This document shows, piece after piece, positions 968-4,947 of a stretch of 41,955 bases of DNA. The notes below the pieces were generated by a model. The model was not told where the DNA came from. It did not search any database and saw only the letters and a program-made list of their open reading frames with translations. Source of the stretch: Pseudobutyrivibrio sp. (lineage in GTDB: Bacteria; Bacillota; Clostridia; Lachnospirales; Lachnospiraceae); assembly GCA_024681435.1 (NCBI GenBank), contig JAILAV010000184.1, positions 1 to 41,955 on the forward strand. Direction: 5' to 3'. Made by a program: the position numbers and the translations under genes. The first letter of the stretch is position 1; every line of letters starts with the position of its first letter.

Positions 968-1465
968 TTAGTTTCGAGAGATATTTAGTATCTCTAAAAT
1001 CTCTCTTTGTTTTTCTTCCATGATAGATGCATCAGTATCTGTCATGTGATCAAACCCAAATAAATGTAACATACTATGGGCTATAAGAAAAGCATATTCC
1101 CTTAGATTAGAATGACCATATTCCTCTGCTTGTTTGTAGATTCGAGGAATGTTCAAAACTATATCTCCAAGAATTACTTCTCCAGTCTCAGGATTAAATA
1201 AATCATCATTTTCTTCAATTGAAGAAAAATCACCAGGTTCTTTATATTCTATCATAGGGAATGAAAGAACGTCAGTAGGTGAATCTATTTCTCTAAACTC
1301 TTTATTGATAGTTTGGATGCCCTCATCATCAGTTAATGTAATACTGACTTCTGCTTCAAAAGGGAACTCCATATAATCTATAGCTGTATTAACAACATCC
1401 TTTGCTATCTTCTCATAGTCAAAGTCAAATTTTACATCATATTCACTTTCAATATATATTGTCAT
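968..1465 (-). CDS. ybeY: YbeY endoribonuclease (rRNA maturation)
   Basis: At 165 aa this is a typical-length YbeY, the zinc-dependent single-strand endoribonuclease involved in 16S rRNA 3'-end maturation and ribosome quality control. The zinc triad is in the spaced HxxxHxxxxxH motif HSMLHLFGFDH, with His130, His134 and His140. The conserved Arg59 lies in NKEFREI and is followed by the SPTDVLSFPM signature. Ser131 stands where many homologues have Gly. The ATG overlaps the upstream stop codon as ATGA, indicating translational coupling to the PgpH-like gene. The phoH-(PgpH-like)-ybeY order is the classic Firmicute arrangement. Confidence 0.95.
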   Translation of the reverse strand: MTIYIESEYDVKFDFDYEKIAKDVVNTAIDYMEFPFEAEVSITLTDDEGIQTINKEFREIDSPTDVLSFPMIEYKEPGDFSSIEENDDLFNPETGEVILGDIVLNIPRIYKQAEEYGHSNLREYAFLIAHSMLHLFGFDHMTDTDASIMEEKQREILEILNISRN

Positions 1466-2655
1466 GCTAATATGTCCTCGTTTGCAAGTATTTCACGAAT
1501 TGTAAGGAACTGATTCATAGTAAGTCCTGAATTATCATAAAATCCTTTTTGTGAAAGCTCATTAATAGTTTGGTAAATAACCATATTTTGATTCCAGGAG
1601 CTACTCATGGAATCTGAATCAAATAACTCAACCTTTGTAACTACAGAATCAACCATATGAACAATAGCTGATTCTTTGGAACTAGGTAAAGACACGATTC
1701 CACCATATTCAGAAAGAATTTGGATTACATCATACGGAAAACAGTGATTATTAGCAATTTTTATTGCATTGTCGATCATTGGTTCCCCTTCGATTTTACC
1801 TAATCTGTAATAATATCCTGCGCAAGCAGCTAAATCTGCATTAGCATTAATAGCAAGTGCGCATTTTTTAGATAGTCTAGATAAGCGTGAGGCATGCTTA
1901 AATTCTATTGAAGAAAACTTACGAATTTCATTATACAACACATACTCTTCATCTAGGAAGTCTTCGTAAGCAATTGCTTGCGACATTTGAACCGACTTGT
2001 ATAAAAATGGCAATGTACAAACTGCTACTACACATGCAATAACACCAGCACCAAGGCCATATACAAATACAGAAAATGTAAGCTCTAAGTAATTAAAATA
2101 ATAGAAAATAATTGAAATTAGCGTGGTTACCGAAAATAAAAGAACCATGCCATAGAGTTTCTGAAGAACCTCTCCCTCTTTCAAAAAATGTGAAATAAGT
2201 CCGCCAAATAAAACCATTGTAACGTAACATAAAACCATGTATACGCTGTAATCCCAACATAATGATGTAATAATAACTAAATAGAGACTTAATGAATTAG
2301 TTAAACTATCATCAAATACTGCACTTGCAATAATAGGTAAAACTATTAGAGGTGCAAAAAAGTTTGGAGCAAAGTTGCTACAAAGGATTGTAATAGCCCA
2401 TTCTAACAGCACTACAAAAGTAATCTTACCATAAGAAATGTAGTTGTATTCAGGTAGTTTATTTTCTAATCTTCTCCTGATTAAAAGTAAAATAAAATGG
2501 CAAAAGAAGACGATGTTGATGGCATTAATACAAATATATTTATCAATTAATACTGAAGCTAATGAACATAGCAAAGTGTTAGATAATATAAAAATCAATG
2601 CCATGATCAAAATATAAACAATCCGTATTGTGGAAAATCTATTTGTTTGTCTCAT
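1462..2655 (-). CDS. Degenerate PgpH/YqfF-like membrane HD-domain protein
   Basis: This 397-aa protein lies between phoH and ybeY, where Firmicutes usually encode PgpH (YqfF), a c-di-AMP phosphodiesterase of about 700 aa. It keeps the multi-pass membrane region (hydrophobic segments from about residue 9 to 220; the stretch 101-125, PLIVLPIIASAVFDD, resembles the 7TMR-HD core). The cytosolic domain at about 225-397 has an HD-domain layout. The large extracellular 7TMR-HDED domain is absent. The catalytic HD of the GYYHDIGK motif is replaced: GYYYRLGK has Tyr283-Arg284. The later HHG motif is also lost (SEYGG, about 315-319). His254 and Asp336 remain in recognisable positions. It is probably not a phosphodiesterase; a structural or sensory role is possible. 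The frame is intact and coupled at both ends (TAATG with phoH, ATGA with ybeY), so it is not an obvious pseudogene. Confidence 0.75.
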   Translation of the reverse strand: MRQTNRFSTIRIVYILIMALIFILSNTLLCSLASVLIDKYICINAINIVFFCHFILLLIRRRLENKLPEYNYISYGKITFVVLLEWAITILCSNFAPNFFAPLIVLPIIASAVFDDSLTNSLSLYLVIITSLCWDYSVYMVLCYVTMVLFGGLISHFLKEGEVLQKLYGMVLLFSVTTLISIIFYYFNYLELTFSVFVYGLGAGVIACVVAVCTLPFLYKSVQMSQAIAYEDFLDEEYVLYNEIRKFSSIEFKHASRLSRLSKKCALAINANADLAACAGYYYRLGKIEGEPMIDNAIKIANNHCFPYDVIQILSEYGGIVSLPSSKESAIVHMVDSVVTKVELFDSDSMSSSWNQNMVIYQTINELSQKGFYDNSGLTMNQFLTIREILANEDILA

Positions 2656-3641
2656 TATTTTGCCCTTTTATTTTTATTCTCACTTCTTTTCTCATGCTTT
2701 TCGTAAGCATTAACAATTTTTTGTACTAATGGATGTCTAACAACGTCCTTTGAATCCAAAGTACAAATTTTAATATCCTCGATATTTTTAAGAACTGACA
2801 TAGCATCATCAAGACCGGATTTCACTCCAGTAGGAAGATCTTTTTGGGTTTTATCTCCTGTAATAACTGCCTTTGAACCAAAACCTATTCTAGTCAAAAA
2901 CATCTTCATTTGAGCTGGTGTAGTATTTTGAGCCTCATCAAGAATAATAAATGCATTATCTAAAGTACGTCCTCTCATATATGCAAGAGGCGCAACTTCG
3001 ATAAGCCCCTTTTCCATATTTCTCTGGAATGATTCTGCACCCATAATCTGATACAAAGCATCATAAAGAGGACGAAGATATGGATCTACTTTACTTTGCA
3101 AATCTCCCGGAAGAAAACCTAACTTCTCTCCTGCTTCAATTGCAGGACGAGTAAGAATAATCCTTGAAACCTCTTCATTTTTAAAAGCTGTAATTGCCTT
3201 TGCCATAGCAAGATATGTCTTACCAGTACCGGCAGGGCCTACGCCAAATACAATCATATTATTTGTGATTGCATCAACATATTTTTTCTGACCAAGTGTT
3301 TTAGGAGCAACAGGCTTTCCTGTAGTTGTATGACAGATTATTTCGCCTCTTGCTTCAGAAACATCATGGCTTTCTATTTTTTCTTGTTCGATTGACATAA
3401 TATAATTAACATCCTGTATTGTAATAGTATTGCCTTTTTTAGAAAGGGATAAAAGTTCATCAACGATAATCACTGCATGTTCTACGTGATCTTTTTCGCC
3501 TATAACTTTTATAGAGTCATCTCTAGGAATAAATGAAATATCCATCCCTTTTTCAATGGCTTTAATATTTTTATCAAATTGACCAAATATGTTGTCAATA
3601 TGTTCCGCAGGAATCGTAATACTTAAAGAAAAATCACTCAT
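2655..3641 (-). CDS. phoH: PhoH-like ATPase (YbeZ family)
   Basis: PhoH-family P-loop ATPase, an RNA-linked partner of YbeY in many bacteria. The N-terminal ~80 residues resemble a KH-like fold. The ATPase follows, with Walker A GVGPAGTGKTYLA and Walker B FIILDEAQN, then TRIGFGSKAVITGDKTQKDLP. I use the ATG at 3641 (328 aa), which comes one nucleotide after the stop of the upstream phosphorylase gene. A longer reading from a TTG at 3659 exists but adds only six residues that the family does not need and has no ribosome site. The ATG itself also lacks a clear Shine-Dalgarno, so translation is probably coupled to the preceding gene. Confidence 0.92.
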   Translation of the reverse strand: MSDFSLSITIPAEHIDNIFGQFDKNIKAIEKGMDISFIPRDDSIKVIGEKDHVEHAVIIVDELLSLSKKGNTITIQDVNYIMSIEQEKIESHDVSEARGEIICHTTTGKPVAPKTLGQKKYVDAITNNMIVFGVGPAGTGKTYLAMAKAITAFKNEEVSRIILTRPAIEAGEKLGFLPGDLQSKVDPYLRPLYDALYQIMGAESFQRNMEKGLIEVAPLAYMRGRTLDNAFIILDEAQNTTPAQMKMFLTRIGFGSKAVITGDKTQKDLPTGVKSGLDDAMSVLKNIEDIKICTLDSKDVVRHPLVQKIVNAYEKHEKRSENKNKRAK

Positions 3642-3642
3642 T

Positions 3643-4947
3643 TTATTCAACAATATCAATTATAAGTTTCATGTGGTCGCATTTATCTGGAGAAATAACT
3701 GTGGCTTTCTCAATTAACTCTTTTGCATTTTCGATTTTATTTTTATCGTTTGCATGAATATAACAAATTGGCTCACCTTTCTTTACTGTATCACCAACTT
3801 TTTTATTAAGAACAATACCAACAGCCATGTCGATAACATCATCAAATGTTTCTCTTCCGCCGCCAAGAGACATAGAAGCAAGACCAAATGATTCCGCCTT
3901 TAATGCATGAACATAACCATCTTCTTTAGCTTCTACAGGTACTATAATAGAAGCTGGTTTGAAGTTTGATAAATCCTTAGCGTAATTTGAATTACCTCCT
4001 TGAGCCTCAATAAACTCAATGAACTTATTAAAAGCTCTTCCTGAAGAAACAGCATCTTCCATAAGTTTACGAGCCTTTGCTTTATCTGTCTCAATTTCAG
4101 AAAAGACTATCATCTGTGAGCCAAGCTCATATACAACTTCCATTAAATCCTCAGGCCCATTACCTTTAAGTGCATTGATAGCTTCGATTACCTCGAGATC
4201 ATTTCCAACAGCATAACCTAAAGGCTCATCCATATTTGTAAGTATTGCAGCTATCTTCTTTTTAGCTCTTTTTCCGATATCAACCATTGATTTTGCAAGC
4301 TCAAGAGCATTTTCCTTATTCTTCATAAATGCGCCATCACCCACTGTAACATCAAGAACAATTGCATCTGTTCCTGCAGCAAGCTTCTTTGACATAATAG
4401 AACTTGTAATTAAAGAAATCTCGTCAACAGTAGCTGTAACATCGCGAAGCGCATAAAGCTTCTTATCTGCAGGTGCAAGATTCTTTGACTGACCTGTAAC
4501 AGCTATTTTGATGTCATTAACCTGTCTTGTAAACTCCTCCTCAGAAAGAGAAACATTAAAACCTGGAAAAGCTTCAAGCTTATCAATAGTACCACCTGTA
4601 TGGCCAAGTCCTCTACCGCTCATTTTAGCTACAGGAACTCCTATAGAAGCAACAATAGGTCCAAGAACAAGTGTAACCTTATCACCTACACCTCCAGTTG
4701 AATGCTTATCAATTTTTACACCATCTATTGATGATAAATCCAAAATATCTCCGGAATAACTCATAGCCATTGTTAAATCCAATCGCTCTCTAACGTTCAT
4801 TCCTTTAAAATAAATAGCCATAAGCAAAGCGGAAATTTGATAATCAGGAATTTCACCATGTGTGTAGCCCTCGATTACCTCATAAATCTCTTCCGTAGTA
4901 AGCTCCTGGCCTAACTTTTTCTTCTCAATAACATCATACATTCTCAT
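3643..4947 (-). CDS. pdp: Pyrimidine-nucleoside phosphorylase
   Basis: At 434 aa this matches Firmicute pyrimidine-nucleoside phosphorylase, which cleaves uridine, deoxyuridine and thymidine with phosphate to free the base and (deoxy)ribose-1-phosphate. The family signature SGRGLGHTGGTIDKLE and the phosphate/substrate loop KHSTGGVGDKVTL (about residues 81-93) are intact, and a C-terminal PYNP domain with GGGRETFDD follows. The start is ATG 4947 with AGAGG ten nucleotides upstream. The gene lies 29 nt after rlmH and directly before phoH. In this cluster it is a salvage enzyme placed among ribosome-maturation genes. Thymidine phosphorylase (deoA) is the closest alternative; overall length and motifs favour pdp. 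Confidence 0.93.
   Translation of the reverse strand: MRMYDVIEKKKLGQELTTEEIYEVIEGYTHGEIPDYQISALLMAIYFKGMNVRERLDLTMAMSYSGDILDLSSIDGVKIDKHSTGGVGDKVTLVLGPIVASIGVPVAKMSGRGLGHTGGTIDKLEAFPGFNVSLSEEEFTRQVNDIKIAVTGQSKNLAPADKKLYALRDVTATVDEISLITSSIMSKKLAAGTDAIVLDVTVGDGAFMKNKENALELAKSMVDIGKRAKKKIAAILTNMDEPLGYAVGNDLEVIEAINALKGNGPEDLMEVVYELGSQMIVFSEIETDKAKARKLMEDAVSSGRAFNKFIEFIEAQGGNSNYAKDLSNFKPASIIVPVEAKEDGYVHALKAESFGLASMSLGGGRETFDDVIDMAVGIVLNKKVGDTVKKGEPICYIHANDKNKIENAKELIEKATVISPDKCDHMKLIIDIVE

Follow-up and report, generated by a model that had tools for sequence, protein, structure and literature searches.

The window analysed here, a stretch of 41,955 nucleotides from the assembly of a rumen Pseudobutyrivibrio (Lachnospiraceae; 81% complete), carries between phoH and ybeY a reading frame for a protein of 397 residues, about half the length of PgpH (YqfF), the c-di-AMP phosphodiesterase encoded in this slot in other Clostridia. 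The locus raises the question of what has become of the phosphodiesterase in this lineage and what its shortened counterpart now does. The initial annotation described the frame as coupled to both neighbours, and this is the case: the phoH stop codon and the start codon of the half-length gene share the A of TAATG, while its own stop codon overlaps the ybeY start codon as ATGA. Reading of the sequences revealed the ATGA overlap in 24 of 28 Pseudobutyrivibrio loci; in L010, L022, L023, and L027 the frame extends slightly beyond. The half-length gene was matched in all 29 genus genomes, once with in-frame stops and once cut by a contig end, so that 28 matches, the cut one among them, are free of in-frame stops. 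In one genus genome, with 4% contamination, part of a further copy lies at the end of a contig (L030; G009 contig C16). In the draft genome of Butyrivibrio fibrisolvens 16/4 (FP929036; L052/L026), a frameshift affects the membrane part of the orthologue, through either sequencing error or real decay.

An AlphaFold2 model was built from a 29-row alignment including the window's protein (A1) and reached a mean pLDDT of 84.7 and a pTM of 0.73. Residues 9–227 are modelled as one short and seven long helices (9–32, 37–63, 75–95, 105–110, 116–134, 138–160, 163–189, and 194–227). The protein weakly matches Pfam family PF07698 (7TM-7TMR_HD; E 3.9e-5), with 24.1 bits against a curated cut-off of 29.4, and 21 of the 29 A1 rows, the window's included, match this family at E ≤ 1. 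A scan of the 397-residue protein against NCBIfam yielded no match. In a Foldseek search against the PDB, four matches reached E ≤ 0.001, and each was a chain of the HD domain of Listeria PgpH (4S1C/4S1B), with a probability of 1.00, E-values of 7e-5 to 1.1e-4, and TM-scores of 0.64–0.67 by target length. Moreover, a sequence profile of the window's family matched 4S1B over residues 236–289 (E 8.4e-6). Because the structural and the profile search both find 4S1B/4S1C, the cytosolic part derives from the HD domain of PgpH, in agreement with the earlier description of a retained HD-domain layout. An unrelated cytosolic fold is ruled out, these chains being the only PDB matches at that threshold. 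Two weaker similarities were seen elsewhere, namely to DUF4871 in 22 of the 29 A1 rows (best E 0.0055) and, in Foldseek, to the ECF S-component RibU (5kc0, 5kbw; E 0.39–0.67), for which the membrane core may be the source.

Table. Positions in the window of the half-length gene, its parts, and its two neighbours.
Feature	Position	Strand	Basis
phoH (KH + PhoH ATPase)	2655..3659	(-)	Pfam PF02562, E 5.3e-98
Half-length PgpH-derived gene for a probable pseudo-phosphodiesterase, 397 aa	1462..2655	(-)	ORF, PF07698 match below cut-off, AlphaFold2 model, Foldseek, genus matches
Predicted membrane core, residues 1–228	1972..2655	(-)	Secondary structure of the model; Pfam PF07698 over residues 43–218
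Degenerate cytosolic HD domain, residues 229–397	1465..1971	(-)	Foldseek to PgpH HD domain; profile match of residues 236–289 to 4S1B
Y283-R284-L285-G286-K287, at the HD-x-G-K position of PgpH	1795..1809	(-)	Aligned with 21 PgpH proteins from other Clostridia
WNQNMVIYQT, residues 354–363	1567..1596	(-)	Invariant across the 29-row A1
ybeY (rRNA maturation RNase)	968..1465	(-)	Pfam PF02130, E 5.6e-46; TIGR00043

The ectodomain of PgpH is absent, as had been proposed: its family, PF07697 (7TMR-HDED), is unmatched in all 29 genus genomes, including the source genome. Among 140 Lachnospiraceae genomes no match exceeded the cut-off and one fell below it; as a control, PF07697 is present in 61 of the 118 genomes of a class sample. 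A full-length PgpH encoded elsewhere in the source genome was rejected on the same grounds, PF07697 being missing from the 81% complete assembly and from the genus genomes.

With PgpH/YqfF (Listeria Lmo1466) the half-length protein shares the slot before ybeY, a weakly matching membrane core, the modelled HD fold, the order of its elements, and the positions of the first His, the last Asp, and the Lys, but it differs in its missing ectodomain, in two shorter HD segments, and in its metal site. We take the metal ligands of PgpH to be H514, H543, D544, H580, H604, and H605, in addition to D648. An excerpt of a published account names D648 as a metal ligand and K547 as the catalytic lysine (PMC12072042). 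At the seven ligand positions the window's protein reads H-Y-R-(gap)-Y-G-D, keeping two and losing five. The HD pair has become Tyr283-Arg284 (G280-Y-Y-Y283-R284-L-G-K287) and HHG is gone, both as originally noted, the HHG site now reading YGG (E316-Y317-G318-G), and no HD pair preserved elsewhere in the 397 residues was seen in the alignments. Kept at catalytic positions of PgpH are H254 (H514), K287 (K547), and D336 (D648). Two ligands of seven are likewise retained in all 27 genus proteins examined, frameshifted and cut-off copies from the 29 genomes having been excluded; all 27 carry Arg in place of the HD Asp, and 26 have Lys at the catalytic Lys position. The stretch between K547 and H604 counts 30 residues in the window's protein versus 56–57 in PgpH of other Clostridia, and that between H604 and D648 counts 19 versus 44–47. 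Judged from these sequence features, catalytic activity has probably been lost.

The degeneration is family-wide. We surveyed 140 Lachnospiraceae genomes, one per genus, located YbeY in 134, and read the content before ybeY locus by locus in these. The half-length gene is present in 40 of the 134 (39 and the window's own), phoH directly precedes ybeY with nothing between in 89, and a full-length PgpH between the two was found in none. The remaining five comprise an unrelated gene (G098), another gap (G158; 381 bases without a 200-residue frame), and three unclassified loci (G049, G078, G088). The frame in the slot of G098 (L125) encodes 372 residues and by eye resembles 3-dehydroquinate synthase. 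Beyond the window's own genome, a frame of 300–599 residues occupies the slot in 56 family genomes, a count that takes in G098 as well as 16 genomes not among the 134; phoH was observed upstream in 52 of the 56. The initial annotation had called the gene fixed between phoH and ybeY; this holds for the genus but not for the family, many members of which lack the gene.

Among 38 loci from outside the Lachnospiraceae, 20 encode a full-length PgpH, one encodes a protein of 474 residues (L192), 16 have phoH and ybeY adjacent, and one is unclassified. The 20 full-length genes all lie before ybeY, phoH being observed upstream in 17; with L192 added, this applies to 21 and 18, respectively. All seven ligands are kept in these 21 proteins and in none of the 55 distinct half-length proteins from other genera, of which three keep five ligands, eight keep four, 11 keep three, 25 keep two, six keep one, and two keep none. 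Those with five (L084, L088, L090) are possible intermediates and may retain metal binding or some activity. At the fourth ligand column, His appears in four half-length proteins (L075, L078, L079, L089) in a regional alignment and in none of the 55 in a whole-protein alignment. The Asp of HD is replaced by Arg or Lys in 33 of the 55; at the position of the catalytic Lys, 20 have Lys and 14 Arg. L192 (L192:2966-4390; G388, family f46) resembles the half-length proteins in lacking the ectodomain and in lying in the phoH–ybeY slot, but it keeps full HD segments (57 and 44 residues) along with its seven ligands and groups with full-length PgpH; by its sequence, it is a case of ectodomain loss with the active site intact.

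The 55 half-length proteins constitute one family (leave-one-out profile E ≤ 7.2e-32). With Z set to 20000, a profile of full-length PgpH matches 54 of them with an E-value below 0.1 and 52 with one below 0.01; the exception, L111, is matched at E 9.8 only and is by itself barely PgpH-like. Excluded from the analysis were L125 as unrelated, L030 and L029 as partial, L026/L052 as frameshifted, and five duplicate loci, while L053 and L055–L057 were included in the tree and lie outside the count of 55. In the protein tree, for which bootstrapping had not fully converged (correlation 0.974), L192 is placed with the full-length proteins to one side of a branch supported at 100/100. Together with the shortened HD segments common to the half-length proteins, this branch is consistent with a single origin of the short form. 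Several half-length members evolve fast, with end branches of up to 3.47, and the window's clade sits on a long stem (0.72). On a quick tree of phoH and ybeY, presence and absence of the half-length gene require about 20 changes, of which branches with good support impose at least eight, indicating that the gene was lost repeatedly.

These losses took place in a family with another c-di-AMP phosphodiesterase. GdpP, recognized by its GGDEF_GdpP, DHH, and DHHA1 domains, is encoded in the source genome and in 139 of the 140 Lachnospiraceae genomes, and a diadenylate cyclase domain is found in all 29 genus genomes; c-di-AMP is therefore probably made and cut without PgpH, with GdpP as the likely remaining hydrolase. 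GdpP belongs to the same signalling system as PgpH but differs from the half-length protein in its domains, having DHH/DHHA1 chemistry and a degenerate GGDEF domain. Since the half-length gene has often been lost where GdpP persists, it is dispensable in the genera concerned.

In the window's genus the gene is nonetheless under strong constraint. Across 27 genus orthologues, the median omega is 0.035 for the half-length gene (7 usable pairs), 0.037 for phoH (47 pairs), and 0.115 for ybeY (184 pairs), a rough estimate for the half-length gene because dS is near saturation (median 1.27) and only seven whole-gene pairs are usable. By part, the median is 0.081 for the membrane core (12 pairs, the highest at 0.669) and 0.034 for the cytosolic domain (9 pairs). 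Among 24 diverse members of the clade, the five former ligand positions show higher conservation than cytosolic positions drawn at random (permutation p 0.00035), and W354, N355, Q362, N365, G371, Y373, D374, N381, L384, and R387 are invariant. A1 contains 43 invariant columns even though the four non-genus sequences in it share only 30–35% identity with the window's protein. Given this strong purifying selection, the half-length protein probably serves another job. The loss of five of seven ligands from a gene so constrained supports the earlier suggestion of a retained function other than c-di-AMP hydrolysis.

We tentatively favour, at a probability of roughly 0.4, the reading that this protein is a catalytically dead PgpH descendant that was re-purposed in the window's clade as a membrane-bound, non-catalytic receptor. 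Within the Lachnospiraceae, and probably in a common ancestor, a PgpH descendant would first have shed the ectodomain together with two segments of the active site, and later its metal site; the dead protein would then have been recruited to a new role in the window's clade, where it is now strongly conserved. A long stem followed by strong constraint is the pattern expected of re-purposing, and it is from this burst-then-constraint that we infer such a step. The former active-site pocket, comprising H254, Y282-Y283-R284, K287, E316-Y317, and D336, with an Arg in place of a metal-binding Asp, could hold, and leave uncut, a phosphorylated nucleotide such as c-di-AMP or the pApA that its hydrolysis yields. 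Judging by the conserved pocket positions, we would favour a phosphorylated nucleotide as ligand, with c-di-AMP as first candidate; a nucleotide-binding sensor had also been among the suggestions of the initial annotation. The effect of binding might travel along the conserved C-terminal helix (WNQNMVIYQT in A1) and via the membrane core reach a partner. A precedent may be seen in FimX, described in an excerpt of PMC12072042 as a dead EAL phosphodiesterase that acts as a c-di-GMP receptor. The likeness to such degenerate EAL proteins is one of principle, in that a phosphodiesterase domain without activity may have been turned into a receptor; the domain and the messenger are unrelated, and it is for FimX that binding has been reported. 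The shortened HD segments perhaps removed nucleotide contacts, which may count against the receptor reading, and conservation of H254 and D336 could have a structural cause. A wider version, in which a PgpH hydrolase became a membrane c-di-AMP receptor throughout the Lachnospiraceae, with a conserved Arg replacing the two catalytic metals and holding the intact messenger, appears doubtful; if the half-length protein were a general c-di-AMP receptor, its repeated loss would need explaining.

The same pattern of loss would suit a decaying relic, in which PgpH became redundant with GdpP in the Lachnospiraceae and the half-length genes are on their way out. Such decay would account for the empty slot in 89 of 134 genera and the some 20 changes on the tree, for end branches reaching 3.47, for the graded loss that leaves between zero and five ligands, and for the frameshifted copy of B. 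fibrisolvens 16/4. It sits poorly, however, with the omega of 0.035 in the window's genus, with matches free of in-frame stops in 28 of 29 genus genomes (one cut by a contig end), and with 43 invariant A1 columns at 30–35% identity of the four outside rows. As a general account it is improbable, the less so in fast-evolving lineages, where it may apply, than in the window's clade. A direct action on PhoH, YbeY, or both, either as the membrane scaffold that the initial annotation had suggested or as a membrane regulator, would fit the overlap of start and stop codons with both neighbours, including the ATGA that links the gene to ybeY in 24 of the 28 loci of the genus. Two observations weaken this proposal: the position was inherited, a ligand-complete full-length PgpH preceding ybeY in 20 of 38 loci from other Clostridia, and 89 of the 134 Lachnospiraceae genera have phoH and ybeY adjacent and lack the half-length gene. 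We regard it as unlikely.

Pseudoenzymes often act as dead subunits tuning live enzymes, and the half-length protein might in this way form a heteromer with GdpP or the cyclase DacA. Both candidate partners are at hand, GdpP in 139 of 140 family genomes and a cyclase domain in every one of the 29 genus genomes, but GdpP occurs irrespective of whether the half-length gene is present, which leaves a heteromer a rather slim prospect. The protein might, finally, still be an enzyme, performing metal-free or different chemistry in a rebuilt pocket whose polar positions (H254, Y282-Y283-R284, E316-Y317, and D336) are conserved and whose K287 is kept in 26 of 27 genus proteins. However, the protein has lost two segments of the active site and all but two of the seven metal ligands, and we know of no metal-free HD-domain enzyme, making this very improbable. 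Set against these alternatives, the non-catalytic receptor remains our preferred, if tentative, reading for the window's clade.

Among the matches listed in a search of the open-licence literature, covering titles and the beginnings of abstracts, none described a dead PgpH in Lachnospiraceae. Gene order alone would label the half-length genes PgpH, although in this family the gene very probably no longer supplies that hydrolase activity. With between five and zero metal ligands retained in one and the same slot, the Lachnospiraceae offer a natural series for tracing how an enzyme turns into a pseudoenzyme. Among bacteria of the rumen and gut, the half-length protein stands out as a candidate c-di-AMP receptor of a new type; if the family-wide conversion were true, a major family of gut bacteria would possess a c-di-AMP receptor derived from a dead phosphodiesterase.
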